This document shows, in pieces, positions 35,195 to 53,678 of a DNA stretch of 64,000 nt (positions are counted from its first letter, which is position 1; the number at the start of each line of letters is the position of its first letter). The notes under the pieces were generated by a model, which did no database searches, had not been told where the DNA came from, and was given only the letters and a program-made list of their open reading frames with translations. This DNA is from a bacterium (GTDB taxonomy: Bacteria > Vulcanimicrobiota > Vulcanimicrobiia > Vulcanimicrobiales > Vulcanimicrobiaceae), in contig JAJYCL010000007.1 in NCBI GenBank assembly GCA_021778415.1, positions 1 to 64,000 of the forward strand, given 5' to 3'. Position numbers and translations under genes: made by a program.

Positions 35195-35217
35195 TTTCTT
35201 CGTCCGTTCGCCGTTAT

Positions 35218-36123
35218 TTAGGCAGGCGGACTATTTCTACGGAGCAAAGCGGCAAGCGCCGCGGAAACGACCCTCGCTCGTGGCGGATCCGCGCGCGACG
35301 TCAAAATGATTGGGACCCGAGCACCGAGGACGATACCGGCCAACGTGGCTCCGGCAAGATACTCCAAGGCTTTTGCGAGAACGTTGCCCGAGACGATATC
35401 AGGCACGACGAGAATATCGGCGCGACCGGCGACCTCGCCTCCAATCCCCTTGATCCGCGCCGACTCCTCAGAAATTGCGTTATCGAGCGCGAGCGGTCCA
35501 TCGACGTAGGCGCCGGCAAAACTCCCCTCGGATGCCATTTTTTTCAATGCCGCGGCATCCAGCGTCGACGGAATTGCCGCATTGACCACTTCGACCGCTG
35601 AGAGGATGGCGATGCGGGGCGAGGCGATACCCATTACATGGGCAAGCTGCACTGCGTTTTCGACAATTCCCATCTTCGCATGGAGATCCGGCGAGATGGC
35701 GATAGCAGCGTCGGTAATGCACAGCAATCGAGGGTATGACGCCAAGTCCGCAACAAACACGTGCGAAAGCAATCGCCCGGTGCGTAATTTTGCGAGAATT
35801 GGATGCAAAAACGTATCGGTATGGATATGCCCTTTCATAAGTGCATCGGCCTTTCCGTCGAGCACCATTTGCACACCAAGTTTCGCGGCAACGTCATCTG
35901 TTTGGGCATGAACAATGCAAGGCGATGAACGCATCATCGATTTTCTTCCCTGAAGCATGACCCGAATGGTCGTTTCATCACCGATGAAAATTGGGTTGAT
36001 TATCTCATGCGAAGCGGCATCGATAGCACCTTGCAAGACATGATCTTCAGCGGCATCGACGACCGCAACGGTCAACGGCTCTATGCTTTTAACGACACGT
36101 AGGAGCTCTTCAAAATCGCGCAC
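35218..36123 (-). CDS. phosphate acetyl/butyryltransferase (PTA/PTB family)
   Basis: 301 residues. VVDAAEDHVLQGAIDAASHEIINPIFIGD and SAVEVVNAAIPSTLDA, GPLALDNAIS and DILVVPDIVSGNVLAKALEYL are the conserved blocks of the phosphotransacetylase fold, in the shorter form related to phosphate butyryltransferase and to MaoC-linked phosphotransacetylases. It would interconvert acetyl-phosphate and acetyl-CoA (or a longer acyl). Start GTG at 36123, five bases after the acetate kinase stop. It is the last gene of the phosphoketolase operon, which argues for acetyl-phosphate as substrate. Confidence 0.88.
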   Translation of the reverse strand: MRDFEELLRVVKSIEPLTVAVVDAAEDHVLQGAIDAASHEIINPIFIGDETTIRVMLQGRKSMMRSSPCIVHAQTDDVAAKLGVQMVLDGKADALMKGHIHTDTFLHPILAKLRTGRLLSHVFVADLASYPRLLCITDAAIAISPDLHAKMGIVENAVQLAHVMGIASPRIAILSAVEVVNAAIPSTLDAAALKKMASEGSFAGAYVDGPLALDNAISEESARIKGIGGEVAGRADILVVPDIVSGNVLAKALEYLAGATLAGIVLGARVPIILTSRADPPRARVVSAALAALLRRNSPPA

Positions 36124-36128
36124 GATCG

Positions 36129-37295
36129 TTATAAACCCGGGGAAAAGAGCAGACGTCGCGTATGTCTGGCAATCATTCGATCTTCATCCGTCGGAATGAC
36201 CATAACGCGTACGCTCCGACCCGGTAAACCGATGACTCGATCTCCGCGATCATTCGCGTCCTTATCGATCTCGATTCCGAGGTATCGCAATTGAGAACAT
36301 ATCTCGGAGCGAATAGCAGGCGCATTTTCACCGATGCCTCCTGTAAAGACAAGGGTGTCGATCCCGCCGAGCGCAGCCACCATCGCAGCCAAATGTTTGC
36401 GAGCGCTATAGCAAAACATTTCGATGGCCAGAGCTGCATGCGGCTCGGCGTCTCGTTGATCAAGGAGCGTCTGCATATCCGAGCTTATTCCGGAGATTCC
36501 TAAGAGCCCGGAAAGATGATCAAGCAATCTTTCGAGTTGTGCTGCATCATACCGTTTCTCGTTCATGAGGTACATCACGACCCCCGGATCCAGATCGCCG
36601 CACCGAGTCCCCATAATGAGGCCTGCAGTTGGCGTAAAACTCATGGTCGTGTCGATTGATATTCCGTCTCGCACGGCAACCATGCTCGCACCGTTCCCAA
36701 GATGCGCGATTACGGTCCGTCCCGACGCCCCCTGCAAATCTTCGACAATATATTCGTACGAAAGACCATGAAATCCATATTTTTTTACGCCTTCGTGCCA
36801 CAGGTTTCTTGGTAAGGGTAGACGACTCGCAACTTCGGGAATCGTTCGGTGAAATGAGGTATCGAAGCACGCCACTTGAGGAATCGACGGAAACAGACGC
36901 GCACTCGCCTCAATGCATGCGATTTCAACCGGCAAATGCAGCGGGGCAGAGCGTATTAAAGCATGGAGATCGGTAACAAAATCCGCATCGATTCGGATTG
37001 GCTGCCGATATTTTGGACCGCCGGAGGCAACGCGATGGCCGACGGCATCAAACTTGTCGTATCCGGCTCTCGATAGCCGAGCGAATACGGCCTCCAAAGC
37101 CCGATGATGATCGCTGAATTCACCGATCGATTCGTGCCGCCTTCCATCGTCGAGAATAAGAACCCCGCCGGGCAACCCGATGCGTTCTACCTCCCCTCGA
37201 ATGGCACGCGATTCTCCCGAAGATGTCGGCGAATAGATGGAAAATTTTACCGACGATGATCCGCTATTTATGCAGAGAATCGTGGACACGTTCAC
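36129..37295 (-). CDS. ackA: acetate kinase
   Basis: 388 residues. The ASKHA-fold motifs are visible: ILCINSGSSSVKFSIY at the N-terminus, GHRVASGG, FDTSFHRTIP, KKYGFHGLSYEY, HLGNGASM with GLIMGTRCGDLDPG, and the late LVFTGGIGENAP with RSEICSQL. It converts acetyl-phosphate and ADP to acetate and ATP, and the reverse. Start is GTG at 37295, overlapping the PPK2 stop as GTGA. In this operon it would harvest ATP from the acetyl-phosphate made by phosphoketolase. Confidence 0.97.
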   Translation of the reverse strand: MNVSTILCINSGSSSVKFSIYSPTSSGESRAIRGEVERIGLPGGVLILDDGRRHESIGEFSDHHRALEAVFARLSRAGYDKFDAVGHRVASGGPKYRQPIRIDADFVTDLHALIRSAPLHLPVEIACIEASARLFPSIPQVACFDTSFHRTIPEVASRLPLPRNLWHEGVKKYGFHGLSYEYIVEDLQGASGRTVIAHLGNGASMVAVRDGISIDTTMSFTPTAGLIMGTRCGDLDPGVVMYLMNEKRYDAAQLERLLDHLSGLLGISGISSDMQTLLDQRDAEPHAALAIEMFCYSARKHLAAMVAALGGIDTLVFTGGIGENAPAIRSEICSQLRYLGIEIDKDANDRGDRVIGLPGRSVRVMVIPTDEDRMIARHTRRLLFSPGL

Positions 37296-38167
37296 GACGC
37301 CTTGAGCGCAGCCCGCTGCTGATCGATTGCCGCTCGGATTTCATCCGCTAGCGGAGGGTAGGCAAGATCAAGCGATCGCAACACATGTACCACAATATCT
37401 GCAATTGCAAGCCGAGCGACCCATTTGTGATCGGCCGGAATGACATACCAGGGAATAGACTTCGTACTGGTTGCATTAAGCATCTCCTCGTATGCGACGA
37501 CGTAGTCGTCCCAAAATGGTCGTTGCGAAAGATCGCCTAGTGAGAATTTCCATTGTTTCTTAGGATCGTCCAGCCTCGATAGAAGCCGTTTTCGTTGCTC
37601 GTCATTCGAAAGATGCAAAAAACATTTAATCGGGATAATCCGGTTACGGAGCAAATATTCTTCGAAGTGATTTATATCGCGATACCGATCCTCCCAAAAC
37701 GCCTTACCCATTTTTTTTGCGACATCTTGATCATCTCCAAGAAGATTTTGATGAACGCGAGTAATTAAAACATCTTCATAATGCGAACGGTTAAAAATTC
37801 CGATTCTTCCCCGCTCCGGCAAAACGCGTGCACAGCGCCAGAGATAGTCGTGGCTGGCTTCTTCAACACTGGGTTGCCTAAAACTGTGCACACTGACGGC
37901 CTGCGCATTGACGCCGCTCATCACATGCTTGATCACACCATCCTTGCCCGCGCTATCCATGCCCTGCAAAATAAGAAGTAAGCCATACCTCTTCTGCGCA
38001 CTGAGCATATCCTGCAATGCCGCCATTTCGGAGATATCTGCCAACAATTTTTCTTCAGCGTCCACCTTGTCAAGAAAACCGCAACGATGAGCAGGGTCAA
38101 AATGCGAGAGACCTCCCGGCTTGGCGCGATCGTAACGCAATGCATTTTCAATATGCTTCATTATCAT
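37292..38167 (-). CDS. ppk2: polyphosphate kinase 2 family protein
   Basis: About 291 residues. The Walker A is in LLILQGMDSAGKDGVIKHVM, the Walker B in RIGIFNRSHYEDVL, and the lid region RNRIIPIKCFLHLS with RDINHFEEYL, as in one-domain PPK2 proteins. These transfer phosphate between polyphosphate and nucleotides; the class (ADP to ATP or AMP to ADP) cannot be fixed by eye. The start at 38167 overlaps the ATPase stop as ATGA and has GGAG four bases before; ATG at 38161 is an alternative. Its place in the operon suggests it balances nucleotide and polyphosphate pools with acetyl-phosphate metabolism. Confidence 0.93.
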   Translation of the reverse strand: MIMKHIENALRYDRAKPGGLSHFDPAHRCGFLDKVDAEEKLLADISEMAALQDMLSAQKRYGLLLILQGMDSAGKDGVIKHVMSGVNAQAVSVHSFRQPSVEEASHDYLWRCARVLPERGRIGIFNRSHYEDVLITRVHQNLLGDDQDVAKKMGKAFWEDRYRDINHFEEYLLRNRIIPIKCFLHLSNDEQRKRLLSRLDDPKKQWKFSLGDLSQRPFWDDYVVAYEEMLNATSTKSIPWYVIPADHKWVARLAIADIVVHVLRSLDLAYPPLADEIRAAIDQQRAALKAS

Positions 38168-40479
38168 GATACTCCACGGAAAAGCGGTATCTTTATGAAT
38201 AGGATGATGACGGCACAGAGTAGCAGTACTCCTGTCGTTTCTGCCAAAAGAACAGGAGGAAGTGGCTCGCAAAGAATTCCGAAAAGCGATATAAAAGCGG
38301 CCAAAAAAATTGCGAACAAGCTAGATACCATGAGCCATATAGACGGTCGAGTCGAGAAAATAACTCCACGTTCACGAATCGCCAAAACCGAGAATTGCCC
38401 CATTATCGCAATGCAATAAAAGGCAAGTGTTTGCAATTGCGCCGCATCGAGCCCCTCGTGAGACGACGCAAATAGCAGGACGAACAGGACCGTAGTAGCG
38501 GTCAGCACCGCAATCGGCACAACCGCTAAGACTAATCTCTTGACATTCCAGCGTTGAATCCCCCGAACTGCGCCAATATTATCAGTGGCGACAGCCAACG
38601 TAACAAAATCGTTTATGACGAGAAGAATGACCATCAGATCGGCGGTGAGAAAAAAACGTCCCGTAATAAAAAATGCACAACTAAGAAGAAATGTAATCTC
38701 AAAATATTTAATGATTTTGATAAGCGTATAAGTAAGCATACGCTGAAAAATCCGTCGACTTACCTCAATCGCGGGCAAAATATTGTTCAAGCCTGGTTGC
38801 GTGAGAATAACGCTAGCCGACGCTTTCGCGACATCGGTCGCATTAGATACTGCGATTCCGATATTGGCTTGTTTCAGTGCCGGTGCATCGTTAACCCCAT
38901 CGCCCGTCATTCCAACAATGTGACCATTGCGTTGTGCAGCTCGCACAATAGAAAGTTTATCATCGGGATATATCGACGCAAAAATTGTGCAATGTTCGAT
39001 CAACGAAGGATCGCGCAGCAAGTCGTCATGGTTACAGGAGTCACCGAGAATACCGACGCTTTGTGCAACCGATTTCGCCGTCTCTACGCCGTCTCCGGTA
39101 AGCATCGCAACTCGGACACCCATTGCTTCAATTGCACTAACCAGTGCCTTAGAGTCGTCGCGAGGGGGATCGGCTAACGCAATGAGCCCCACGCACTCGA
39201 CGGCCTCGGCAGCACCACATGCTACGGCAATGACGCGATATCCGCTACTCGCCAAGCTACGGACAGATGCGTCAAAATCGTTCGGTAGAATTTTGCTCAG
39301 CGATCTAATCGCTTCAGGAGCACCTTTGTACGCGATGGCAGGGACGTTGTTCCAAATGACACGCGCGGATGATCGTTTTGTCGCAGGATCAAAGGGCGTA
39401 ATATCATGAGCGCTAAACGTCGGCGTACTGCCTGGTGTCGTAAGAATTTTCGCGGCAATCGCAGAGTCGACGGGGTCCCGACTCGATGAATCCGAGGCTG
39501 CCGACGCTAAACCTAGGACGTCCGCGGCGTTCCGGTCACCAAATGGAAGAATTTTCGCAACAGCGATTTCATTTTTCGTTATGGTACCGGTCTTATCGGT
39601 AAAAAGAATACTCATAGACGCTGCATCTTCAATTGCCGTAAGCCTCGCTACAAGAACTCCATTTTGGGCAAGCTGGAGAGAACCTAGCGTCGTCGCAATG
39701 GTAAACGCAACGGGGAATGCAACGGGAACCGATGCCAATAAGAGGACGATCGCGAAAAGCGCAACATCGAAATACCCTATATGAAGACGAATGGCATCGA
39801 GCACCACAGCGGCAATGGCAATGACGCTTAGGACGCTCAAGATACGAACGAGTTGCACGATAAGCTGCTCGAGTGTGCCACTCACCTTTGCCGTACGGAC
39901 GAGTTCCGCGGTCTTACCATAGGTCGTTCGCATTCCGGTAGCGACAACGGTAGCCTCGCCTTGGCCTCGTTTTACGAGGCCACTTGCGAACAGTCGACTC
40001 CCTTCGGATACATCGCGCGGCAGCGATTCGCCGGTTATGGTCGACTCGTCTACCTCCAGCGTCCCAGAGACGACGCAGACATCGGCCGGAACGATATTTC
40101 CGATATCAAGATGGATCAAATCCCCCGGTACCAATTCGGCCGCCGAAAGCGTCTGCCAGCGATCGTCCCTATAGGTCCTTGCCTGGACGACGATCGCCTT
40201 TCGCAAGAGTGCAACGGCATTCTCTGTGCGCGCTTCTTGCAGTCTCGATAATGTCGCGTTGAACAAGAGCAAAAATAAGATGCCCACAGCATCGGGGTAG
40301 CGACCGGTCGCAAGTGTCATGACAATGACCACTTCCAGCATCCATGGTATCGGACCCCAAAGTTTTATGAAGAAAGAAAGCCACGGCCGAGTCCGCTCAA
40401 GAGGAATCTCGTTGCGCCCATATTTTTTTAAAAGTTCGGACGCCTGAGCACTCGAGAGACCGGTTACTTGTGAATTCAC
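38164..40479 (-). CDS. P-type H+-ATPase (P3A, plasma-membrane proton pump type)
   Basis: 771 residues. The phosphorylated Asp is in FTDKTGTITKNE, TGES is present as TITGESLP, and the hinge reads MTGDGVNDAPALKQANIGIAVSNATDVAKASA. Membrane segment 4 is SVPVAFPVAF, which is the proton-pump form (PVALP/PVAFP) and not the calcium or heavy-metal form. No regulatory C-terminal autoinhibitory tail like that of plant pumps is present. It would expel protons using ATP. Start GTG at 40479, 15 bases after the phosphoketolase stop. Coupling to acid-producing enzymes in the same operon suggests a role in pH homeostasis or membrane energisation. Confidence 0.93.
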   Translation of the reverse strand: MNSQVTGLSSAQASELLKKYGRNEIPLERTRPWLSFFIKLWGPIPWMLEVVIVMTLATGRYPDAVGILFLLLFNATLSRLQEARTENAVALLRKAIVVQARTYRDDRWQTLSAAELVPGDLIHLDIGNIVPADVCVVSGTLEVDESTITGESLPRDVSEGSRLFASGLVKRGQGEATVVATGMRTTYGKTAELVRTAKVSGTLEQLIVQLVRILSVLSVIAIAAVVLDAIRLHIGYFDVALFAIVLLLASVPVAFPVAFTIATTLGSLQLAQNGVLVARLTAIEDAASMSILFTDKTGTITKNEIAVAKILPFGDRNAADVLGLASAASDSSSRDPVDSAIAAKILTTPGSTPTFSAHDITPFDPATKRSSARVIWNNVPAIAYKGAPEAIRSLSKILPNDFDASVRSLASSGYRVIAVACGAAEAVECVGLIALADPPRDDSKALVSAIEAMGVRVAMLTGDGVETAKSVAQSVGILGDSCNHDDLLRDPSLIEHCTIFASIYPDDKLSIVRAAQRNGHIVGMTGDGVNDAPALKQANIGIAVSNATDVAKASASVILTQPGLNNILPAIEVSRRIFQRMLTYTLIKIIKYFEITFLLSCAFFITGRFFLTADLMVILLVINDFVTLAVATDNIGAVRGIQRWNVKRLVLAVVPIAVLTATTVLFVLLFASSHEGLDAAQLQTLAFYCIAIMGQFSVLAIRERGVIFSTRPSIWLMVSSLFAIFLAAFISLFGILCEPLPPVLLAETTGVLLLCAVIILFIKIPLFRGVS

Positions 40480-40494
40480 CGTGAGAAATCGGGT

Positions 40495-42846
40495 CTAGAC
40501 ACTTCCGAGCCACCGCCACCCAAGTATCTCCGGTAAGTCATCACCGACGCGCTCAATATACTCTTTGTGGGTTATCAGCATATCGCGAATTTTTTGTAGC
40601 ACATGGTCTGCGCGCCCTCCAAGTCGCGGGATTCGTTGCACTGCATCTTGCGCCAAATGAAACCGATCAAGCCGATTTCTGACGGTCATATCAAACGGCG
40701 TGGTCGTGCTTCCTTCCTCTTGATACCCATGCACGTGAAAATTCCGATGATTCGTTCGCTTGTATGTGAGCCGATGAATCAGGGCGGGATAACCATGAAA
40801 GGCAAAGATTACCGGTGCGTGAGTTGTAAACAGCGCATTAAAGGTCGCGTGATCTAAGCCATGCGGATGATTTTCGGGAGATTCCAACGCGAGCAAATCG
40901 ACAACATTCACAACGCGAATCAAAACTTCAGGAAGATGTTCTTGCAAAAAAGCGACAGCGGCAAGCGTCTCGAGCGTTGGAACATCGCCCGCACATGCCA
41001 TAACGACATCCGGCTCGGCGCCGTCATCATTACTTGCCCAGTCCCAAATACCGGCGCCAATCGTACAATGTCGGACGGCGGCCTCCATACTTAACCACTG
41101 CCACTCCGGCTGCTTGCCGGCAACTATCACATTGACGTAATCTCGACTTCGTAGGCAATGATCGGTAACAGAAAGCAACGTATTAGCATCCGGCGGCAAA
41201 TACACACGGACAACATCGGACTTCTTATTCACGACGTGGTCGATAAAACCCGGATCCTGATGACTAAAGCCGTTATTATCCTGTCGCCAAACGTGAGACG
41301 TCAGCAAATAATTTAACGACGCGATGGGGCGACGCCACGGTATTTCACGCGTCGTTTTCAACCATTTTGCGTGCTGGTTAAACATGGAATCGATTATGTG
41401 TATAAAAGCTTCGTAACACGGGAAGAGACCATGCCTGCCTGTCAAAAGGTATCCCTCAAGCCAACCTTGGCAGAGATGCTCACTGAGGACTTCCATAACA
41501 CGACCATCGGCGGAAACATGGTCATCCGAGGGATAAATTTGAGCCGTTGAGCAACGATCGGTAGTTTCAAAAAGCGCCGATAGCCTATTCGAATTTGTTT
41601 CATCCGGTGACATGATGCGGAATCGCTCGGGATTCTCACGCATGATGTCGCGAAGAAATTGCCCCATCACTCGTGTCGATTCTGCGGACACCGCGCCGGG
41701 TTTCGGAACGTCAACGGCATAATCCGCAAATTTCGGCAAAGCTAAATTCTTTAACAGGAGCCCGCCGTTGGCATGCGGATTCGCTCCCATGCGCCGCTCA
41801 CCGCTAGGTGCAAGGTTCGCTAGCTCCGGAACTAGCGCGCCCGACTCATCGAAAAGTTCATCGGGCCGGTAGCTTCGCATCCAGGATTCAAGAATCGCCA
41901 AATGTCCGGAATTCTCGCGCACCTGAAGTACGGGAACTTGATGCGAACGAAAAGTACCCTCGATTTCTAGGCCATCGACAATTTTTGGGCCCGTCCACCC
42001 CTTCGGCGTGCGAAGAATAATCATCGGCCAGATTGGGCGGTGATCGAACCCGCTTGTCCGAGCCTGCTTTTGAATCGCACGAATTCCCGAAATGACCTTT
42101 TCAAGAGCCGCAGCCATACAATCATGCATTAGCAACGGGTCATCGCCTTGAACAAAAATTGGATCGTAGCCATAACCAACGAAAAGATTGCGCAATTCTT
42201 CTTCGGGGATTCGCGCAAGAATTGTTGGCCCAGAAATTTTGTACCCGTTGAGATGGAGTATCGGTAGCACTGCTCCGTCGCGCGTTGGATTGAGAAACTT
42301 ATTGGAATGCCAACTCGCCGCTAACGCCCCAGTCTCCGCTTCCCCGTCCCCGACAACAACGCAAGCGAGTAAATCGGGATTATCAAAGACGGCGCCATAG
42401 GCATGCGCTACGGAATAACCGAGCTCACCGCCTTCGTTTATCGATCCGGGAGTCTGGGCGGAAGCGTGACTCGGTACGCCACCCGGAAAGGAAAACTGCT
42501 TAAAGAGGCGCCCAATTCCCAACTCGTTTTGCGGAACATCTGGATACAGCTCGCTATATGATCCTTCGAGATACGTGTTTGCGAGAACTGCGGGCCCCCC
42601 GTGCCCCGGACCCGCAAGAAAAATCATATCGAGGTCATATTGCTTAATCATGCGGTTGAGATGCGCATAAACGAAATTTAACCCTGATGTCGTGCCCCAA
42701 TGCCCGAGTAACCGTGGCTTAATATCTGCCGGCGAAAGAGGGCGACGAAGGAGAGGATTCGTATCAAGCAAGTAAATCTGCCCGACACTTAAATAATTAG
42801 CAGCCCGCCAATAGGCATCGATCAATTTCCGTGATGCGATTTCCAT
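40495..42846 (-). CDS. xfp: phosphoketolase (xylulose-5-phosphate/fructose-6-phosphate)
   Basis: 783 residues from ATG at 42846, normal length. [20 protein letters not shown] and [15 protein letters not shown] are the two PROSITE-type phosphoketolase signatures, and [24 protein letters not shown] binds thiamine diphosphate and magnesium. The enzyme splits xylulose-5-phosphate (or fructose-6-phosphate) with phosphate into acetyl-phosphate and glyceraldehyde-3-phosphate (or erythrose-4-phosphate). It heads a five-gene operon with a proton ATPase, PPK2, acetate kinase and a phosphotransacetylase. The gene starts 57 bases from the divergent glycosyltransferase gene; the space is A+T-rich. Confidence 0.97.
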
Positions 42847-42902
42847 GCGGCGAAGTATACCATGAAATATACGCAGAAATAAGGAAGATCGAATCGGAAC
42901 GT

Positions 42903-43841
42903 ATGCAGCCTCGGCACCCAATGCCCCGTATGCTCTTTATTCGCGATTACCAAGGTTATAACGGGGGCCATCGCAAGGTTTTTGACTACATTTCCCACGT
43001 TGCCGCAATGGGACAATTCCTGCCTGCACTTTACTGCACGAAAGCAAGCGTCCCCATTCCATCGCATTATCTTCCCCACGACCTCGAAATACTCAAAGAC
43101 ATAAGTGTTTCGGACGCATATTTCGTCGCTGGAAACGATTGGGTCCAACTTGATCACGCGGGAATCGACACCACAACGTCACCTGTTATTAATCTTATTC
43201 AGGGCCTTCGGCATGCCAATCCGGATTCGACACAGTATAGGTTTCTTGATCGACCGGCACTGCGCATATGTGTTAGCGACGTTGTCGCCGACGCAATTCG
43301 ATCGACGGACCGCGTAAATGGACCAATTTGCGTGAATTACAACGGCATCGCCCCCCTTTCTCGATTTATACCTTCATCACGAACTTGTGATGTATTTATC
43401 GCTGGTGCAAAAAACCCGGATCTTGCACGCCGCGTAGCAGCACTTGCGCAAGAGCGAGGCATATCTCTTGATTTGCTTACTGATTTTATCGACCAAAGGC
43501 AATTTCTTCGACGCATGGCTTCGGCAAAGATTGCCCTGACGCTACCGCTGCCAATTGACGGTTTTTTTCTACCGGGACTTGAAGCCATGGCGCTTGGGTG
43601 CATCGCAGTTGTTCCAGATTGCCCAGGGGCTCGCAGCTATTGCATCGATGGAAAAACCGGATTTACTCCAACAGCAGACGAGAATGCAATTTTAACAACG
43701 ATTCAAGCGATACTTGCCGATGCTGAGCGAGCCAGTAAAATTCGAAATGAGGCGAAGCGAATCGTTCAGGAACATTCAATTTCGCGAGAACGAAAAATGT
43801 TTTCAAAATTTTTGTCCGAGCATTTTAAGAGATTTTTATGA
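42903..43841 (+). CDS. glycosyltransferase (GT4-like, GT-B fold)
   Basis: About 312 residues. The C-terminal half shows the GT-B donor-binding pattern: [43 protein letters not shown], with the E of the EX7E motif in PGLEAMALG, and a DG(K/E)TGF loop. The N-terminal half ([22 protein letters not shown]) has the GGxxK-like acceptor side start. The length is on the short side for GT4. Start ATG at 42903, with further ATGs at 42921 and 42930. It is the first of three genes coupled by ATGA/GTGA overlaps, and the region is richer in A+T than its neighbours. Confidence 0.8.
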
Positions 43842-44728
43842 AACCTAGCAACCATATTTTTGTCGTTGTAGCCCATCAAGATGACTGGCAGATATTTTTC
43901 GGTCATACACTCTATCATTACGTTCGCGATCCACAAAAAAACATCGTCATTGTTGTGATAACAGCGGGTGATGCCGGAGATTCTGGAGCACATTGGAAAT
44001 CTCGTTTATCCGGAGCTGTAATTTCTATCGCTCGAGCTCTTCCATCCTGGAGTCCATACGCACTCGACGAGCGCCCGTCGGCAGAATTACCCTCGTCATT
44101 TCAAATTGCATATCGCCACAGCATGATCGAGGGAAAAAATATTCTCTCGTGTGAAATTCAAGGAACATTGTCTGCGACAATTTCTCTTAAATTTCTTCAT
44201 CTTCCTGATGGGGGAGTCTCGGGTTATGGTTTTTCGCCGAATTTTGCTTCCCTTTTACACTTAAAAACAGAATCGCAGCCCCTGCAAACACTTTGGCCCG
44301 AGCACAAACCAAGCACGTATACGACGTGGGAAGAGCTTCAACATACGGTAGGAAAAATAATCGATGACGAACTACCCACGACGGATACGAATGCGCCCAT
44401 TTACGCGGCAGATCCTGACCCGATAGTAAACCCGGACGATCATATCGATCATCGATTAACATCCGAGTTGGTCGCGCAACTCATTAAGACACGTCCAAAC
44501 CTCATTCCACATTGGCATGCAATGTATTGCATAGCCTCCAAAGCGAAAAACCTCGCGCCTGAGGACGAGCGACTCCAACGGACGGCAATTTTCGCATATG
44601 GCGCAGGGTATAGCGCAACTGCTGCCGGATTCGGCGAGAAATGGCGCACCGGTTGGGAACGGGAATATCTCGCATTTTCTGGGCGATATTACCCGACGAA
44701 CCGCACTGACGAGAGTAAACCTGAGTGA
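43838..44728 (+). CDS. PIG-L family deacetylase
   Basis: 296 residues. VVVAHQDDWQIFFGHTLYHYV is the AHxDD zinc motif of the LmbE/PIG-L family at residues 11-16, and DDHIDHRLTSELV supplies the HxxH ligand near residue 208. These zinc enzymes remove acetyl groups from N-acetylglucosamine-type sugars on lipid or small-molecule carriers. The usual AHPDDE has become AHQDDW, so the last acidic residue of the motif is replaced by Trp; activity should be checked. Start ATG overlaps the glycosyltransferase stop (ATGA). It likely acts on the product of that transferase. Confidence 0.82.
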   Translation: MKPSNHIFVVVAHQDDWQIFFGHTLYHYVRDPQKNIVIVVITAGDAGDSGAHWKSRLSGAVISIARALPSWSPYALDERPSAELPSSFQIAYRHSMIEGKNILSCEIQGTLSATISLKFLHLPDGGVSGYGFSPNFASLLHLKTESQPLQTLWPEHKPSTYTTWEELQHTVGKIIDDELPTTDTNAPIYAADPDPIVNPDDHIDHRLTSELVAQLIKTRPNLIPHWHAMYCIASKAKNLAPEDERLQRTAIFAYGAGYSATAAGFGEKWRTGWEREYLAFSGRYYPTNRTDESKPE

Positions 44729-46002
44729 AACCCTGCATAGAAACATCGATTATTGAAAGCGCCGATGAAATTGCGGCGCAATTCTACTCCGCGCAGCCGT
44801 TTAAACATGTCGTTCTCGAGAATTTCTTCAGGGAAGATGTGGCAAGAAGCCTCGTCGCGGAATTTCCATACGCGCCGGAAAATGGGGTCAAAAATTCATA
44901 TGGAGCTCCAGGAGACAAAATTGTTCATTCGGATTTAACGAATCTGGGCCCGACCTTTCGGGAAATAGACACATATTTTAGTGCGCAGACAACGCTTGAC
45001 TGGCTCGCCACTATTACGGGCATTCCGGATATTCTTTACGATCCAAGCAATTACGGTGGTGGCCTTCACGAAAACTGCGACAACCGAGATCTCCGACCTC
45101 ATGTCGATTTTAATTTTCACCCTGTAACAAAATTGCATCGTCGGCTCAATCTCATCGTCTATCTCAACGATCCGTGGAAGAGCGATTGGGGTGGCTCCTT
45201 ACAACTTTACGCCGATCCAAGAAATCACCAGGAATCGCCCGTTTCCTATGAGCCCCTTTTTAATCGATGCGTCCTTTTTGCAACATATGAGGCCTCATGG
45301 CATGGATTCGATCGTTTGTGCTTCCCGAAAGACGGGGTGTACCGGTCTCGTAAATCGCTTTCATTGTATTTTTATACAGCAGAACGCCCAAGCACCGATA
45401 TTTACCGGGAACACACGACTTTTTTCATTCCAAGACCCTTTCCGGCGAAATACGCCGCGGGATATACCATTACAAGGGAGGACGAGTGCGACCTTACCGA
45501 TCTAATAGGTCAGCGCGATCACCTTATCGAGCTTTACCAAGGCGAGCAAGGGCGACAAGATGAGTCTTCATCAGAACTTGCGCAGCTACGCATACTGGTT
45601 AGCCAATTGCGGAAATCTCAACATGTTCCAACGATGGGCTATGTTAGGACCATAGAAACCATTAAATCTGGCTACTCCGATGGCTGGTGCGAGCGAGCGT
45701 TTTCGTTTCGAATTTGCGCAGAGCGGCCGGTTTCTGGTATCTCGCTTTCGATTCGCATCCCTGAGGGCATGCCTCAGGACGGACAAATTACGGTTTCCAT
45801 AGATAAAAAAGATAGTGTATCGTCGTTCGTTGCGCCCGGAACGCTCACATTAGATATTGCGCACACGCTTGAAACCAATACGATTGCCGAAATCTCCATT
45901 CGAAGCACGCACACGGTCAATCACTATCAACTTGGCATAAGCAAGGATCAACGCAATCTGGGTTTCTACTTAGAACGCGTTATTTTCGACCATACTGGTT
46001 AG
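44725..46002 (+). CDS. Fe(II)/2-oxoglutarate oxygenase with C-terminal beta-sandwich
   Basis: 425 residues from GTG at 44725, overlapping the deacetylase stop (GTGA). The first 255 residues are a prolyl-4-hydroxylase-like double-stranded beta-helix: the metal motif is HVDFNFHP (HxD), followed by LNLIVYLNDPWKSDWGGSLQLY, the distal His in SWHGFDR and an Arg/Lys for 2-oxoglutarate in SRKSLSLYFYT. A short coiled-coil linker follows at about 265-300. Residues 310-425 form a beta-rich domain (GYSDGWCERAFSF...) of a type found next to surface-glycan enzymes. It would hydroxylate a sugar or protein side chain; the substrate is unknown. Confidence 0.82.
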   Translation: MKPCIETSIIESADEIAAQFYSAQPFKHVVLENFFREDVARSLVAEFPYAPENGVKNSYGAPGDKIVHSDLTNLGPTFREIDTYFSAQTTLDWLATITGIPDILYDPSNYGGGLHENCDNRDLRPHVDFNFHPVTKLHRRLNLIVYLNDPWKSDWGGSLQLYADPRNHQESPVSYEPLFNRCVLFATYEASWHGFDRLCFPKDGVYRSRKSLSLYFYTAERPSTDIYREHTTFFIPRPFPAKYAAGYTITREDECDLTDLIGQRDHLIELYQGEQGRQDESSSELAQLRILVSQLRKSQHVPTMGYVRTIETIKSGYSDGWCERAFSFRICAERPVSGISLSIRIPEGMPQDGQITVSIDKKDSVSSFVAPGTLTLDIAHTLETNTIAEISIRSTHTVNHYQLGISKDQRNLGFYLERVIFDHTG

Positions 46003-46015
46003 GTAGGAAAAAATC

Positions 46016-46684
46016 ATGTTTGACCTTGACGCATATCGAGATTTCGGGCACTCTTGCACACTACGGGCCCTGTTTCCGGGGCAAGCGAGTGAGCTCTTAG
46101 CAACGATTGATCGCGACGTTCTCTCGAACGACGGGCCGGATGTTCGTTCTCGAACACAGTCTCGCCATCTTGATTCAGCGGCGCTCGCAAAACTGTGCAA
46201 CTCGCCAAGTATTACGAGTGCCGTCCATGACGTGCTTGGTCCGCACATCGTTCTTTGGCGCTCAAATATTTTCAATAAGCTTCCCGGGGCACCAGAGCTC
46301 CCCTGGCATCGAGACTCCAGCATTTGGCGAGATCTTCTTACGCCCATGGTCAACGTTACGGCATGGGTCGCGCTTACTTCGACAACTTTATCGAACGGAT
46401 GCATAGAATTTATACCAGGCTCTCATCGCGTGACGTATCGCAATGAGCGCTTCAATCAACAGTATCCGCAACTGCCGGAGGAGGAAACGGACCGGAGTCT
46501 TTCTATTCCACTGGAACCGGGCCAATTTATCCTATTCGATTCCACTACCTTGCATCGGTCAGGTCCAAATTTATCAAATGAGCGACGATTAGGTGTTGCA
46601 ATTCGGTTCACTCTACCGACGGTCAAAATCTGTCAAGACCAGAGACTTTTTGATGGATATAAGTCGATTAGCATTCAGCGCTAG
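46016..46684 (+). CDS. phytanoyl-CoA dioxygenase (PhyH) family protein
   Basis: 222 residues, ATG at 46016 preceded by AGGTAGG. The metal site is WHRDSSIW (HxD) with a distal His in LHRSGPNLSNERRLGVAIRFT, whose Arg would bind 2-oxoglutarate. ALTSTTLSNGCIEFIPGSH is the typical PhyH core. PhyH proteins in bacterial glycan and natural-product clusters hydroxylate, epoxidise or desaturate small substrates. It is the second Fe/2-oxoglutarate oxygenase in this operon; the two are not close paralogues. Its stop overlaps the convergent sulfotransferase stop by four bases. Confidence 0.88.
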   Translation: MFDLDAYRDFGHSCTLRALFPGQASELLATIDRDVLSNDGPDVRSRTQSRHLDSAALAKLCNSPSITSAVHDVLGPHIVLWRSNIFNKLPGAPELPWHRDSSIWRDLLTPMVNVTAWVALTSTTLSNGCIEFIPGSHRVTYRNERFNQQYPQLPEEETDRSLSIPLEPGQFILFDSTTLHRSGPNLSNERRLGVAIRFTLPTVKICQDQRLFDGYKSISIQR

Positions 46685-47364
46685 AATAAGTACTTAAAAC
46701 GATCAATATCGCGAGCAAAATGCTTACTCACGATGTCCCGTGTTGTTTTGGTATAATAGGTCGCATAATTATTGTGCTCGGATCGATTTTCGTGTGGCAA
46801 CCGCAATTCTACGCCAATTCGTCGAGAGATATAGGCCAGATCGTTTCCATAATTCTCGAATCGCCCAATAAAATCAACCGCATTTTGACCATATTTATCT
46901 TCGATAAACGAAGACATATCGCACCGAACTGCGCAGAACCCGTTCACGAAATTCTCGAAAGAATCAGATCGTTGAACAAACGCTTGGATATCTGGTTCGA
47001 GCGGGTACTGAACGGGCAAAAAATTCATTTTTGCAAAATGATAGGACGATACAACCAAATCCCATGGGTTTCGCACAAAAGCGAACCGGAAAAACTCCTT
47101 CCATTTGTTTGTTCCCAATAACATTTGGAGAACTTGAGCTGGAAGATGTTGCTGGGGAAACTCCGTCAGCGTTGAAAGCGGAAAACATTTTCGTAACGCC
47201 TGCAGTATGTCTGCCAAATCGGGCCGGCCGTAGATGAGATCCCAAAGCCCGCGTTCTTCGAACGTAAAATCGATTGCCGCAGATCGCATCGCCTGAACAA
47301 GGGATGTCCCTCCCGTTTTCGGGATATGGATATATGCGAAACGACAGTTTTCGGAAATCGGCAT
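46681..47364 (-). CDS. sulfotransferase family protein (family 2 type)
   Basis: 227 residues. YIHIPKTGGTSLVQAM is the 5'-phosphosulfate-binding loop for PAPS, with Lys, Thr and Gly as in heparan-sulfate-type sulfotransferases, and FAFVRNPWDLVVSSYHF is the 3'-phosphate-binding block. This pattern is the sulfotransferase family 2/6 of polysaccharide sulfation. It would add sulfate to a sugar chain, possibly that built by the convergent cluster. The ATG overlaps the stop of the upstream hydrolase by one base (TAATG). PAPS synthesis genes are not seen in the window. Confidence 0.85.
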   Translation of the reverse strand: MPISENCRFAYIHIPKTGGTSLVQAMRSAAIDFTFEERGLWDLIYGRPDLADILQALRKCFPLSTLTEFPQQHLPAQVLQMLLGTNKWKEFFRFAFVRNPWDLVVSSYHFAKMNFLPVQYPLEPDIQAFVQRSDSFENFVNGFCAVRCDMSSFIEDKYGQNAVDFIGRFENYGNDLAYISRRIGVELRLPHENRSEHNNYATYYTKTTRDIVSKHFARDIDRFKYLF

Positions 47365-48068
47365 TATGTAATCGTCACGGGAATTCCAAATTTTTGCAAA
47401 AGAGCGGATACGTCATCATGCGATGCATCGTGGTTCACGATGATATCGATAATAGGACGAAGCGCGCGATAAACAATCTGCAGATACATTGCTACATCAT
47501 GTCCGCATCCTGAAACACAATATATTTGCGCATTGGGATCTTCAAAGGCCCTGAAGTGTGCGAGATGCGGCAAATCGTTTGTATCTCTATCTCCGAAAAA
47601 TATGAATCTTCGCGACCCATTACTTTTCGGGACATGATCAAATCGCCATGTTGCAATTTTTTCAATATGATCGCGAAAGCGAGGATCATAAATAAGCCCA
47701 TTAGGTCGCACGCTAAAAGTGGGAACAAAGGCAATCGTGGATTTTCGGGCGGCAAAAACGGTATCAAAGAGCAAAGCTCCATATCCGCCTGCGCTATTTC
47801 CGAGTAAATACGTCTGCCCTAACGGTAAGCGCGGGTCTAGGACAGTACGGATCGTTTCAAAGGTTTCATTAAACAACGATCGTGCTTTTTCAACCACGTA
47901 ATACACGTCGTGCGAGATCGACGCATCTGAAAGCGTGCCCGCAAACTCTTCACGCTGAATTCCGCCGAATCCTAAGGCGAAGCCGGCAAACGCGACGATC
48001 GCTTTATCATGCTCGGTCCCGGGTTCGAAGGTAATCCTAAGGCGCTCGTCCTCGAACAGCGTTTCCAT
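47364..48068 (-). CDS. alpha/beta-hydrolase-like protein linked to a sulfotransferase
   Basis: About 234 residues. YLLGNSAGGYGALLFD is a nucleophile elbow (GNSAGG) of the alpha/beta-hydrolase fold; FIFFGDRDTNDLP provides a likely acid and CVSGCGHDVAM a likely His. Such proteins occur beside capsule glycosyltransferases and sulfotransferases; the reaction is unknown. Start ATG at 48068 gives METLFEDERLRITFEPG, similar to family openings; a GTG at 48086 would add six residues. It is coupled to the sulfotransferase gene by TAATG and converges on the glycosyltransferase operon. Confidence 0.72.
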   Translation of the reverse strand: METLFEDERLRITFEPGTEHDKAIVAFAGFALGFGGIQREEFAGTLSDASISHDVYYVVEKARSLFNETFETIRTVLDPRLPLGQTYLLGNSAGGYGALLFDTVFAARKSTIAFVPTFSVRPNGLIYDPRFRDHIEKIATWRFDHVPKSNGSRRFIFFGDRDTNDLPHLAHFRAFEDPNAQIYCVSGCGHDVAMYLQIVYRALRPIIDIIVNHDASHDDVSALLQKFGIPVTIT

Positions 48069-48171
48069 CGCGCAATTTTTCGCCACGAGAGACCCATTCC
48101 CCTAACGGGCTTTCCTGCGTATTACGGAGAACGCATTCCGTGCTTATGCGTGAGACCTTTGTCACAGCTTT

Positions 48172-49629
48172 ATGACACAACAACGCTGGTATCGTTCTAG
48201 TTTAGCGCTCATCGGAGCGATAACGCTATTTCGGTTGGTCGTAGCGTCCCGGCTCCCAGTCAGCGATGATGAAGCCTACTACTGGACGTGGGCACAGCAC
48301 CTTGCATTTGGGTATGTGGACCATCCACCGCTCGTCGCATGGCTTATTTCCTTGGGAACCTTCGGTGGAATAGCGCACAGCTCGCTGTCGCTGCGCTGGC
48401 CGTCGATCCTTTGCGAAGCCGCTGCAGCTTTTGCCGCGAGCCGGGCGACGCGCGAATTACAAGGAAATGAGCGGGCGGCGTTTTTAACGGCATTTTTTTT
48501 CTCATTGCTCCCCGAGACCAGGCTGCTCATTGGGCAGGCGCTCCCTGATCCTCCATATCTTCTCGCCTGGTCCATGTCACTCTGGATCATGCTTCGGTTT
48601 GAGCGAACACGACAGCGCAACGATGCAGTTCTTCTTGGTCTAACACTTGGAGCAGCATTGCTCTCGCGCTTCTTTGGCTGGGCGCTCATTTTCGGCATTG
48701 CTTTCTATGCGCTCACACCGCAAAAGCGTTCCCTATGGAAAGACGGCTTGTGGCTTGCACTTCTCCTTGCACTCGGTTTTTACGTACCGAATATCGCCTG
48801 GAACGCTAGCCATCACTGGGCAAATTTCGCCTTCACCTTTCACGGCCGGCAAGCAATTCGGCACCTGGAGGTTTCACGACTATTCGCACTTTCTACGTTT
48901 CGCTATGCGATATTCGCTGTTGCGTTTTGGGGAGTAGCCTGGTGGGCGATCATCCGTCCGCGATTTACACTGCTCGCGTGGACGGCACTTCCGTTCACAA
49001 CATTTCTTATCGTTCTCGGCATGTTTCAACGCGTCGAGTCGTATTGGTTACTCGGCCCCTTTACATCGCTATGTATTGGGCTGGGCATTGCCGTGTCGCA
49101 ACTTCCAGTAGCAGCACGCAGAACATGCCTGGGAGTTTGGCTCCTGCTTGCCGTCGTGAGTGGATTTTTTATCTCCATAGCATCGCTGCCGCTGCCGGTC
49201 CAAGCACGTATCATGAGAAGCTCCGGTCATATCCTTGTCGGCTCAGTGGTCGACCGCTCGTATGCCTATAGCTCACTTGCACGCGCGCTCCGGCCCGCTA
49301 TCAATAATCGAGCGTTTCGTATCGTCGCACGGCCGTATGAAATTGCATCTCAGCTCCGGTATTTCGGTATACACGCGGATCTCACCGACGGAAGTCCCCA
49401 AGCACAACAGTTCGCAATGTGGCCGATTGTTGATACCGGCTCGACCTGCGAAATTCTTGTCACGTTTGCTCCTCACAGTATCGGATCGACAATCGGCCAA
49501 CATTCGCAAAAAACCGACCCCACGTCCCGGAACCAGCGACTGACCTACGACGTTGCCAACCAACAGGGCCTGGCGTTTAACGTTCGCACCTCGGATGCAG
49601 GACCTTGTCATGAAGGGATGCCCAAATGA
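48172..49629 (+). CDS. GT39-type membrane glycosyltransferase (ArnT/PMT-like)
   Basis: 485 residues with about ten to eleven membrane helices. The motif RLPVSDDEAYYWTWAQHLAFGYVDHPPLVAW after the first helix contains the catalytic acidic pair (DDE) and the GYxDHPPL signature of family 39 glycosyltransferases, which use polyprenyl-phosphate sugars outside the inner membrane. A soluble tail of about 110 residues follows. No clear ribosome site precedes ATG 48172. It is coupled to the MauE-like gene by ATGA. The acceptor is unknown; protein O-glycosylation or lipid decoration are both possible. Confidence 0.9.
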   Translation: MTQQRWYRSSLALIGAITLFRLVVASRLPVSDDEAYYWTWAQHLAFGYVDHPPLVAWLISLGTFGGIAHSSLSLRWPSILCEAAAAFAASRATRELQGNERAAFLTAFFFSLLPETRLLIGQALPDPPYLLAWSMSLWIMLRFERTRQRNDAVLLGLTLGAALLSRFFGWALIFGIAFYALTPQKRSLWKDGLWLALLLALGFYVPNIAWNASHHWANFAFTFHGRQAIRHLEVSRLFALSTFRYAIFAVAFWGVAWWAIIRPRFTLLAWTALPFTTFLIVLGMFQRVESYWLLGPFTSLCIGLGIAVSQLPVAARRTCLGVWLLLAVVSGFFISIASLPLPVQARIMRSSGHILVGSVVDRSYAYSSLARALRPAINNRAFRIVARPYEIASQLRYFGIHADLTDGSPQAQQFAMWPIVDTGSTCEILVTFAPHSIGSTIGQHSQKTDPTSRNQRLTYDVANQQGLAFNVRTSDAGPCHEGMPK

Positions 49630-50810: not shown

Positions 50811-53678
50811 TTGGCAAACTATCGAGCAAAGTTGCGACTACTCGGTACCATCGCGATTGATGCCGGAAGTGGGGATCGACCGCTTCGCCTTCCGCGTCGC
50901 GCGGTGGAAGTGTTAGCGATGCTTGCCCTTAGCCGAGGAAAGCCCCTATCACGCTCGTACATTCACGAAACACTTTGGCCGGATTCATCGGATGACGATG
51001 GTCGCGCGAATCTACGTCGCCACCTTCATCTGCTTTCAAAGGCCCTCCCGTTTCACGACGATATTCCATGGATACTCTCCGACAAATCGTTCCTCTGGTG
51101 GAACCACGCATCGCCTTACGCAATCGACCTCTTCGATTTCGAGGATCTTCATGCCAGCGGTGATGCAAAATCGGCTCTGGAGCGCTATGGTGGCGATCTT
51201 CTTCCCGGCTCATTTTCCGGTTGGCTAGAGCCGCATCGAGCCCGCCTCCGTGATATGGCACTCGATCTGTTGCGGAAGCATTCACGCATTGCCGACGATA
51301 TTGAGGCGATTGCGGCAGCTGAGCGCGGATTAGATATCTACCCGTACGATGAACAACTCCTCGGCGAACTTATTAAGCGACGAGCCGCGAGCGGCGACCG
51401 CGCAGGAGCGCTTGCTCGATATCGCCAGTTTGAACGCCGTCTCCGCGACGAACTCGATGCCGCACCCGATTCCCAAACGGTCGCTTTGTTTGAATCGATC
51501 CTCAAAGGATCTGAGCTAAACGCTCAAATTGGGAATTTGCCCCCGCGGCCGAACACGAGCTTCATTGGTCGAGACGCCGATGTCGCCCTCGTTATTCGCT
51601 CTTTAGAGCGCGCTCGAATCGTTACGCTTCTTGGCCCGGGAGGAGTCGGAAAAACGCGACTTGCCCTTGAATCGGTTTGGCGATCGCCGGTGCTCTTCCC
51701 GGGTGGAACGTGGTTCATTGACCTTGAGAACATCGTCCGCGGCGAAGAGATTATCGAGCGAATCCGACGGGCCATAGGCGATACGTCGCCCCAAATTGAC
51801 TCTCTCTTAGCATTACGTGAACGGTTCAGCGGGAAACGGGCGCTCATCGTCCTTGATAATTGTGAGCATGTACTGAGTAATGTCGTTCGCTTTGTAGAAA
51901 AAATATTCAACGTCGAAGATATAACAATCCTCGCTACCAGTCGACGCCCGCTCACTCTGCCAAACGAAATCGTTATTCCGGTAAAGCCACTTTCCATTTC
52001 TGAACAGCCAAACGATGATTTGGAACCCATGCCGGACTCCTCGGCAATACGCCTCTTTGTGGATCGGGCGATTGCCGCCGGCGCTCATCTCGTTCTTAAT
52101 GATACAACAACGAAAATCATTGGGGATTTAACGGCAAAGCTCGATGGGCTTCCCTTAGCCATCGAACTAGCCGCATCGAGAGCAACGTTCTTAACGCTCG
52201 ATGAAATCGACCAACGGATTGCACAAACCCTCGATATTCCTCGGCACGCCCATTTTTCTTCAACGCGCCACGATACACTCCGCGCAACCGTCGGTTGGAG
52301 CGTGGATCTCCTATCACCCAAAAGCAAAGAACTTTTCGGACGACTTTCGGTGTTTTACGGGTCTTTCGATCTCGCCGCAATCGAGGCGGTCTGCGTAGGA
52401 GATTTGATCGAGGTTGAGGATGTCGTCGCTCTTCTTAGTGATCTTATCGAAGGATCGCTGATAACCGCTGATCGCCGATCCGAGCACGATGTCAGGTACC
52501 GAATGCTCAAAACTATCCGGCGGTATTCACTAGTCGTTGCGGCCGAAACACCAACCCTACACGCGTGGCACGCGCAGCATTATACGCTTCGCGCCACGGA
52601 AGCGGCTATACACCGTCAGCGACGATACCGCATGCGGCTCGACCATGATAATTTTATGGCGGCATTACGTTGGTATGAATCCATTGATGACATCAAGAAT
52701 ATTTCCGGCTTGACATTCGCCCTTGCTTGGTATTGGCGTCGCCATGGGCATGTGCGAGAGGGCACGGCGCTCGTGCAAAGTCTTCTTGAGAAATATTTTT
52801 CGCGAGCGACTGATGGCTCCAAAGGGGAGCTCGCACGATCGGCCGGTATTCTTGCCAACGCGTGCGGCGACTGGTCAGAAGCCCTGAAGTGGAATCAGCA
52901 GGCAGCGGAAGCGTTTACGTCATGCGGACGTCACCGCGATGCGGCAGAAGCTCGGATCGGCCTCATTCATTCACGGTCATCAACCGGCCAGCCGATTTCG
53001 GAGACCATCGCTCAATACAAACGTGAATATGACGAATTGCGAGATCTTGGCGAAGACGTCATCGCAGCGGAAACACTTGCAAATATCGGTGTCATGTCGA
53101 GTCTGTCCGGAGATCATGAATTAGCTCGAAAATATCTTGTTGATGCAGTCTCAATATGTAGGCGATATAACAGAATTGATAGCACAACGATCACGTTGCA
53201 ACAACTTTCATTAGTATATCGTGTTAGTGGCATGGCAGACGAATCGATGACGTGCGCTCGAGAAAGCCTTGACTTAGCCCGCAAGGCAAACGATACTCCG
53301 GCGGAATCGACTGGTCTTCGCATCATTGCCCAACTCCAAATTGATTTGGGTGAAATTTCGCACGCCCATGAAAACATTCGCGAAGCGCTTCTAAAAACCG
53401 ATATCACGTACGAGACGCTAAGTTCGGTTTACAGCGTCACGACTGCAGCGTATGTCTTAGCGGCCGAGAACCATTTTATTGAAAGTGCACGAACACTCGG
53501 GTTCGCTATGTATGTTCAGCGCGCATGGGGGATTAAGGACCAACCAATTCTTACCAAAAACGCCGATCTTATCGAAAAACTCCGTGCGCACATCGGGAAC
53601 GATCTTGAAAAACAGATAAGTTTCGGGGAGATCCTCTCATTGAGTTCAATCATTGCCATGCTCGGCACAAGAAATTAA
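50811..53678 (+). CDS. BTAD/NB-ARC transcriptional regulator (AfsR-like)
   Basis: 955 residues. Residues 1-95 are an OmpR-type winged helix (LRLLGTIAIDAG...RRAVEVLAMLALSRGKPLSR...LWPDSSDDDGRANLRRHLHLLSKAL), 100-235 the BTAD helical domain, 250-540 an NB-ARC ATPase with P-loop LLGPGGVGKTRLAL and Walker B RALIVLDNCEHV, and 600-955 TPR-like repeats. This is the AfsR/SARP architecture known best from actinobacteria; such proteins activate target promoters on binding ATP and a signal. The start is TTG at 50811; no better start is visible, and the reading matches the family start. It converges with the GGDEF-EAL gene with a four-base overlap. Confidence 0.9.
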   Translation: MANYRAKLRLLGTIAIDAGSGDRPLRLPRRAVEVLAMLALSRGKPLSRSYIHETLWPDSSDDDGRANLRRHLHLLSKALPFHDDIPWILSDKSFLWWNHASPYAIDLFDFEDLHASGDAKSALERYGGDLLPGSFSGWLEPHRARLRDMALDLLRKHSRIADDIEAIAAAERGLDIYPYDEQLLGELIKRRAASGDRAGALARYRQFERRLRDELDAAPDSQTVALFESILKGSELNAQIGNLPPRPNTSFIGRDADVALVIRSLERARIVTLLGPGGVGKTRLALESVWRSPVLFPGGTWFIDLENIVRGEEIIERIRRAIGDTSPQIDSLLALRERFSGKRALIVLDNCEHVLSNVVRFVEKIFNVEDITILATSRRPLTLPNEIVIPVKPLSISEQPNDDLEPMPDSSAIRLFVDRAIAAGAHLVLNDTTTKIIGDLTAKLDGLPLAIELAASRATFLTLDEIDQRIAQTLDIPRHAHFSSTRHDTLRATVGWSVDLLSPKSKELFGRLSVFYGSFDLAAIEAVCVGDLIEVEDVVALLSDLIEGSLITADRRSEHDVRYRMLKTIRRYSLVVAAETPTLHAWHAQHYTLRATEAAIHRQRRYRMRLDHDNFMAALRWYESIDDIKNISGLTFALAWYWRRHGHVREGTALVQSLLEKYFSRATDGSKGELARSAGILANACGDWSEALKWNQQAAEAFTSCGRHRDAAEARIGLIHSRSSTGQPISETIAQYKREYDELRDLGEDVIAAETLANIGVMSSLSGDHELARKYLVDAVSICRRYNRIDSTTITLQQLSLVYRVSGMADESMTCARESLDLARKANDTPAESTGLRIIAQLQIDLGEISHAHENIREALLKTDITYETLSSVYSVTTAAYVLAAENHFIESARTLGFAMYVQRAWGIKDQPILTKNADLIEKLRAHIGNDLEKQISFGEILSLSSIIAMLGTRN

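Follow-up and report, generated by a model that had tools for sequence, protein, structure and literature searches.

A six-gene cassette with two Fe(II)/2-oxoglutarate oxygenases and a sulfotransferase in a Vulcanimicrobiaceae genome, and its probable role in tailoring a surface polysaccharide

We analyzed a 64,000-nucleotide stretch from a bacterium of the family Vulcanimicrobiaceae (contig JAJYCL010000007.1 of assembly GCA_021778415.1), referred to here as the window (G000:C32:1-64000; the assembly G000 comprises 2.59 Mb in 61 contigs). It carries a cassette of six genes encoding a GT4-type glycosyltransferase (GT), a PIG-L family deacetylase, two different Fe(II)/2-oxoglutarate (2OG) oxygenases (OXY3 and PhyH), a sulfotransferase (ST1), and a hydrolase-like protein (HYD). 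Our results indicate, with a probability of about 0.68, that the cassette is a tailoring set acting on a polysaccharide of the cell surface or on the lipid-linked precursor of one. This proposal starts from the gene content, motifs, domain homology, and conserved co-occurrence that we observed. The main new evidence for a polysaccharide target is the sequence homology of the C-terminal domain of OXY3, which points to a family of exporter and glycan proteins.

The OXY3 C-terminal domain and the conserved gene core

Residues 298–425 (approximately) of OXY3 form a beta-rich accessory domain (C-domain). Two Wzt-like ABC ATPases encoded in the related genomes G112 and G009 match it at their C-terminus (hidden Markov model E values of 1e-32 and 6e-30; hhalign probability 99.8, E 1.9e-29), the matching regions being 32–33% identical to the C-domain of the window OXY3. 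Ten carriers other than OXY3 were typed, namely 9 of the 19 C-domain-only matches and one neighbour: two are Wzt-like ABC_tran proteins, two WcbI, one Sulfotransfer_3, three GT2, and two had no Pfam match. A PIG-L gene adjoins or lies near both Wzt-like carriers. Because the domain is common to Wzt, GT2, WcbI, and sulfotransferase proteins, a polysaccharide substrate is indicated. O-antigen-ligase-type proteins (L018:5891-7789 and L049:14032-16059) match the C-domain weakly in their N-terminal part (E about 1e-3), and these, another kind of surface-glycan protein, possibly hold a related domain. Judged by its position and company, the C-domain is most simply a glycan-recognition module. A comparable arrangement is described for Aquifex aeolicus, where the O-antigen carries a cap with a chemical modification and the C-terminal carbohydrate-binding domain of Wzt recognises this cap (PMC9445017).

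Profile searches with OXY3 and ST1 covered 149 genomes of Candidatus Eremiobacterota. The full-length, two-domain OXY3 was present in five of them, belonging to four genera (G000, G006, G029, G032, and G105; G032 is of the window's own family), and the remaining matches had the N-domain alone or the C-domain alone. A separate search for related loci, run with restrictive patterns, yielded two loci out of 22 candidate stretches; both proved to be the G032 and G105 cassettes and were counted once. PhyH and ST1 genes lie within approximately 5 kb of OXY3 in all five genomes, where the PhyH homologues of the other four cassettes are 40–52% identical to that of the window. An earlier note on this DNA, made from the sequence alone, had considered two unrelated oxygenases in one small operon unusual for a capsule locus; this view needs qualifying, since the OXY3-PhyH pair recurs wherever full-length OXY3 occurs. 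Strong ST1 matches were found in eight genomes, among them all five with OXY3 (Fisher P 1e-7, with genomes that are not independent). The gene combination is therefore non-random.

A second Sulfotransfer_2 protein, ST2, is approximately 30% identical to ST1. ST2-type matches of the ST1 profile were confined to the five OXY3 genomes; the gene is inside the cassette in four of them, and that of the window genome sits on contig C39, beside tail-collar genes. In 5/5 genomes, ST1 and the cassette gene next to it converge, and the stops overlap by four bases in the window, L018, L019, and L068, and by 13 bases in L020. An adenosine 5'-phosphosulfate (APS) kinase is encoded in all five cassette genomes, so that 3'-phosphoadenosine 5'-phosphosulfate (PAPS) can be made. 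GT homologues with 42–43% identity were detected in G006 (contig C95, within the cassette) and in G032 (contig C16, not the cassette contig). Among 59 relatives searched, only G032 had a PIG-L homologue, adjacent to the GT gene there too, and no HYD homologue was found. GT and PIG-L are thus less fixed members than the OXY3-PhyH-ST1 core.

The surroundings of the homologues were also inspected. The cassette of G006 is next to genes for an ABC-2 permease, an O-antigen ligase, and a Sulfotransfer_3 protein, with WcbI further upstream; those of other relatives adjoin GT2-type proteins and methyltransferase-like genes, the latter judged by eye only. Homologues of the OXY3 N-domain occur in polysaccharide loci in the three annotated plasmid regions (Allocoleopsis, Parasedimentitalea, with sulfotransferases, and Sinorhizobium), a fourth region being left out of this count because its record had no annotation. 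The plasmid homologues of HYD belonged to polysaccharide loci in 3/3 cases, each locus also encoding a sulfotransferase or PAPS synthase. Four plasmid contexts of ST1 homologues were examined: two polysaccharide loci, one with a hydroxylase and further sulfotransferases, and one unclear.

The context with the hydroxylase is on the Asticcacaulis plasmid pASDW145_1 (L176), where an Asp/Asn hydroxylase and two further sulfotransferases come after the ST1 homologue, beside a TonB-dependent receptor. This locus is another hydroxylase-sulfotransferase pairing.

Layout and catalytic domains of the cassette

The six ORFs lie at the place and on the strands given in the earlier note, whose description of an island with two Fe/2OG oxygenases and a sulfotransferase was confirmed; Pfam families were assigned to all products but HYD, for which there was no match at E ≤ 0.1 (Table 1). 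The genes for GT, PIG-L, OXY3, and PhyH are read rightward in this order, and those for ST1 and HYD leftward. Four-base overlaps couple GT to PIG-L and PIG-L to OXY3. The overlap of the convergent PhyH and ST1 stops, also described in that note, is indeed of four bases (46681-46684). The GT ORF opens with a GTG at 42831, and homology to relatives begins near the ATG at 42903. Promoter and terminator counts in the window equalled those in shuffles, and an Rfam search of the window matched only tRNA.

Table 1. Coordinates of the cassette genes and their flanks in the window
Feature	Coordinates	Strand	Evidence
GT4-type glycosyltransferase	42903..43841	+	Glycos_transf_1, 33.2 vs. Pfam gathering cut-off 26.4
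PIG-L family N-deacetylase	43838..44728	+	PIG-L, 46.5 vs. gathering cut-off 28.2
OXY3, two-domain Fe(II)/2OG oxygenase	44725..46002	+	2OG-FeII_Oxy_3, 55.7 vs. cut-off 27
OXY3 C-terminal domain	45616..45999	+	Homologous to C-terminus of Wzt-like ABC exporter ATPase
PhyH-type Fe(II)/2OG oxygenase	46016..46684	+	PhyH, 94.4 bits vs. cut-off 22
ST1, Sulfotransfer_2 family PAPS sulfotransferase	46681..47364	-	Sulfotransfer_2, 41.9 vs. cut-off 22
HYD, alpha/beta-hydrolase-like	47364..48086	-	GNSAGG elbow, GCGHD; 1-base overlap with ST1
Left flank, phosphoketolase (XFP), outside cassette	40495..42921	-	XFP_N + XFP_C
Right flank, PMT_2 family membrane glycosyltransferase, normal GC	48172..49629	+	PMT_2

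The N-domain of OXY3 (residues 1–227, approximately) is of the prolyl-4-hydroxylase (P4H) type. Its H126-x-D128, H193, and R209/K210 are invariant in five homologues. The predicted fold is closest to Tpa1 (Z 15.6, root-mean-square deviation 3.5 Å over 207 residues), followed by the P4H of Pseudomonas putida (Z 13.0); across Tpa1 and P4H the deviation is 3.5–4.2 Å, and the matches span residues 2–227 only. OXY3 therefore has the HxD...H ligands, the basic 2OG-binding residue, and the double-stranded beta-helix fold of a P4H-like 2OG oxygenase.

In PhyH, H98-x-D100, H180, and R191 are invariant in five homologues. Among solved proteins, SyrB2 and CytC3 are the closest in sequence, with EvdO2 and kanamycin B dioxygenase further down; the latter two are sugar-modifying enzymes. 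Halogenases of the SyrB2/CytC3 type have a motif that differs from HxD. PhyH is predicted to be a hydroxylase with an intact HxD metal site, not HxA/G. Its candidacy as a halogenase was ruled out on the intact HxD and on a score of 91.1 bits for the chlorinating enzyme model TIGR01762 (curated cut-off 226.3). Two adjacent genes with weak similarity to PhyH are present downstream of the window on its own contig (L052:3014-4704).

ST1 contains HIPKTGGTS and RNPWDLVVSS, so that both the 5' and the 3' phosphosulfate-binding motifs, through which such enzymes hold the phosphosulfate, are present; the G029 homologue has an R in place of the motif K. PIG-L has the profile, the AHxDD motif, and the distal His motif of a deacetylase; AHQDD and DDHxDH are found both in the window protein and in its G032 homologue (45–47% identical). 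HYD aligns with three plasmid proteins, with which it shares GNSxGG and, toward the C-terminus, a His motif, as in alpha/beta hydrolases. Its predicted structure was useless, with a mean predicted local distance difference test score (pLDDT) of 34.5.

Base composition, flanks, and origin

The GC content was 0.44–0.50 in the 1-kb windows between 43.0 and 48.0 kb, compared with 0.542 for the whole window and 0.54–0.55 just downstream. The mean GC content at third codon positions (GC3) was 0.455 in the six genes and 0.575 in 59 other ORFs of the same genome (Mann-Whitney P 1e-6), which were chosen by length and may include some non-genes. The full set comprised 70 ORFs of at least 140 amino acids, taken from the window, the remainder of its contig, and 20 kb of C39; counted from the lowest GC3 upward, the cassette genes had ranks 1, 2, 3, 4, 9, and 12 in it. 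These values bear out the statement of the earlier note that the island is richer in A and T than its flanks. Equal composition and the same neighbourhood in all relatives would have spoken against a distinct island; the composition differs, and the relatives lack the neighbourhood.

The GC dip starts before the island, near a tRNA-Val (35120-35194). Directly after this tRNA there is a block of intermediate GC with pta, ackA, PPK2, cation ATPase, and phosphoketolase genes (35120-42921), and the dip covers it. Since the five genes upstream of the island, back to the tRNA, have an intermediate mean GC3 of 0.516, the AT-rich stretch is composite. A separate AT-rich dip (GC approximately 0.47) occurs at 53000-55000, at a GGDEF-EAL gene. 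The cassette is not consistently AT-rich in relatives: its GC inside and outside was 0.676 and 0.662 in L019 and 0.627 and 0.618 in L020, near the local value, and 0.572 and 0.636 in L018, modestly below it.

The search for signs of mobility recognised no integrase, transposase, or insertion sequence (IS) element among 21 window proteins scanned, a set that covers every cassette gene and the nearest flanks rather than every ORF of the window. An integrative element at the tRNA-Val (35120) was considered and is unsupported: a repeat of the type expected at its ends was not found, and no integrase or transposase was recognised among the 21 proteins, although the GC dip starts at this point. The island is absent from the phosphoketolase loci of five relatives and the PMT loci of three. 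XFP is conserved at all five phosphoketolase loci, with AckA adjoining it in 4/5, and no cassette adjoins the PMT homologues. A clean empty site was not found, the XFP and PMT flanks being adjacent in no relative examined.

The transfer suggested in the earlier note is thus only partly supported as a recent event. The odd composition, the patchy distribution, and the absence of the island from the relatives' XFP and PMT loci are in its favour, but mobility genes and flanking repeats were not recognised. A gain long ago, followed by differential loss, is an equally good fit because of this lack of a recognised integrase, IS element, or repeat and because the cassettes of L018-L020 are near or modestly below their local GC. 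Odd composition by itself gives no date for a transfer.

Proposed function, alternatives, and known systems

In a tailoring set for a surface polysaccharide, GT4 would add a sugar, probably N-acetylated, and PIG-L would take off the acetyl group. OXY3 and PhyH would then hydroxylate at different positions, and ST1 would transfer sulfate from PAPS to a hydroxyl or to the amine left by deacetylation. For HYD, a part in trimming or transferring an acyl group is possible. The substrates and the order of these steps are what we infer, as is the glycan-binding role of the C-domain, through which OXY3 would locate its target. Since related genomes fuse this domain to a Wzt-like exporter, the modified glycan would probably be recognised by the same domain type that gates export. 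N-sulfation after deacetylation by PIG-L, in a heparan-like manner, is an idea only; ST1 belongs to Sulfotransfer_2. The cassette is not a complete capsule or O-antigen biosynthesis locus, as judged from the 21 proteins scanned, and if it is active, the assembly genes must sit elsewhere in the window genome.

Several results weigh against a polysaccharide target. No polymerase, flippase, exporter, or priming transferase is among the 21 proteins, and the five cassette genomes bear the C-domain solely on OXY3, on no exporter. When the two Wzt-like proteins were scanned against Pfam at E ≤ 1, no Wzt-C family was listed, and a PDB sequence search gave no match for the C-domain; what links the C-domain of the Eremiobacterota Wzt proteins to the canonical carbohydrate-binding domain is thus its position only. 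The OXY3 model, with a mean pLDDT of 67, is of modest quality and usable for parts only, and its nearest folds, Tpa1 and OGFOD1, act on protein proline. Two of the four ST1 plasmid contexts were not clear polysaccharide loci, and those of the PhyH and PIG-L homologues were mixed.

A second group of genes has to be considered together with the cassette. On contig C39 of the same genome, ST2 is followed by a module (L051:11297-14812) encoding two tail-collar proteins (Collar, PF07484), STx, and an Asp/Asn-hydroxylase-type protein (AspHyd), and the ST2 stop overlaps that of a Collar gene by four bases. STx was labelled sulfotransferase-fold from its LSRCGSTL and RDPxxxxxS motifs and had no Pfam match. 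Its profile had strong matches in 12 of the 149 genomes. These occupy 14 places, and at each of them a Collar gene lies no more than 6 kb away. The Asp_Arg_Hydrox oxygenase of this module was present in the nine loci inspected with wide flanks (L051, L020, and L169-L175). A Collar gene adjoins the OXY3 cassette in G006 and G029, and in G029 the whole collar-AspHyd-STx module is contiguous with it. An Azospirillum plasmid encodes a distant homologue of STx near PqqD, an asparagine synthase, and two "tail fiber" genes.

The contiguity in G029, the position of ST2 in the window genome, and the Collar gene at the G006 cassette link the module to the window cassette. It is conceivable, if doubtful, that the two are halves of one system, a surface relay that would "hydroxylate, then sulfate": hydroxyls made by the unrelated oxygenases OXY3, PhyH, and AspHyd would be esterified by ST1, ST2, and STx, and the exporter-type domain of OXY3 would direct the mark to the site that a Wzt-type exporter reads. 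Collar proteins would serve either as the carrier or as the fibre displayed on the surface.

The same genes bear on whether the target might be a protein. OXY3 could hydroxylate a surface protein such as a tail-collar protein, and the glycosyltransferase and ST1/ST2 could then glycosylate and sulfate the new hydroxyls. The nearest folds of the OXY3 N-domain (Tpa1, OGFOD1, and the P. putida P4H) act on proteins, and Collar genes occur in all five OXY3 genomes and in 23 of the 144 others, in addition to the proximity described above. However, the Collar genes of G032 and G105 are on other contigs than the cassette, the partners of the C-domain are polysaccharide enzymes, and the N-domain homologues sit in exopolysaccharide (EPS) loci, so that we regard a protein target as unlikely. 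Much the same low probability is given to a small glycosylated, hydroxylated, and sulfated metabolite, in spite of the resemblance of GT4 and PIG-L to BshA and BshB of bacillithiol synthesis. The two genes are translationally coupled, the pair is conserved in G032:C16, there is weak NCBIfam similarity to BshA and BshB1, and the nearest solved relatives of PhyH are natural-product enzymes (SyrB2, CytC3, EvdO2, and kanamycin B dioxygenase). The BshA and BshB1 scores are far under their cut-offs, however (21.2 vs. 273.7 and 16.8 vs. 182.5 bits), the cassette and its immediate flanks contain no assembly-line, amino-acid-ligase, or transporter gene, and the C-domain speaks for recognition of a polymer.

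A decaying remnant of a larger polysaccharide locus, no longer a functional unit, would account for the absence here of ST2 and of the assembly genes found in the relatives' loci, and for the AT-richer DNA; with six intact frames, coupled overlaps, and the metal ligands kept in both oxygenases, we consider it very improbable. The earlier note had left the product open between a hydroxylated, sulfated glycan and a small glycosylated metabolite. The partners of the C-domain, the polysaccharide genes of the relatives, and the distant EPS-locus homologues of OXY3, ST1, and HYD favour the glycan, and the metabolite is disfavoured.

Bacterial glycans that bear sulfate and hydroxyl groups are difficult to predict from sequence data. 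A recognition domain common to a P4H-type oxygenase, an exporter, glycosyltransferases, and sulfotransferases of one lineage offers a testable glycan-binding handle, and through this domain link substrate recognition itself becomes testable. The other carriers of the C-domain could lead to the matching polymer in this uncultured phylum. No description of the gene combination reported here was found in the open-access literature, subscription papers being outside the scope of the search.

Parts of the cassette resemble known systems. The GT4 and PIG-L pair recalls BshA/BshB1 of bacillithiol synthesis, but the equivalog cut-offs are missed and the cassette adds oxygenases and a sulfotransferase. 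The OXY3 N-domain shares the double-stranded beta-helix and HxD...H ligands of Tpa1/OGFOD1 and bacterial prolyl-4-hydroxylases; its C-terminal half is unrelated to theirs, and its genomic context points to glycans. EvdO2, kanamycin B dioxygenase, and SyrB2 are the closest solved sequences to PhyH, which differs from SyrB2 and CytC3 in its intact HxD. The sulfated EPS and capsule loci of rhodobacteral and rhizobial plasmids likewise combine a sulfotransferase, glycosyltransferases, and a HYD-like protein or 2OG oxygenase in one locus, whereas the OXY3-PhyH-ST1 core was in none of those examined. In the Aquifex aeolicus WzmWzt transporter (PMC9445017), the cap is O-methyl and the recognition domain is at the exporter C-terminus, whereas here the domain is on an oxygenase and no exporter was seen near the cassette. 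Both cases would pair a chemical modification with a recognition domain, and in the Wzt-like ATPases of related genomes the OXY3-type domain occupies that same exporter C-terminus.

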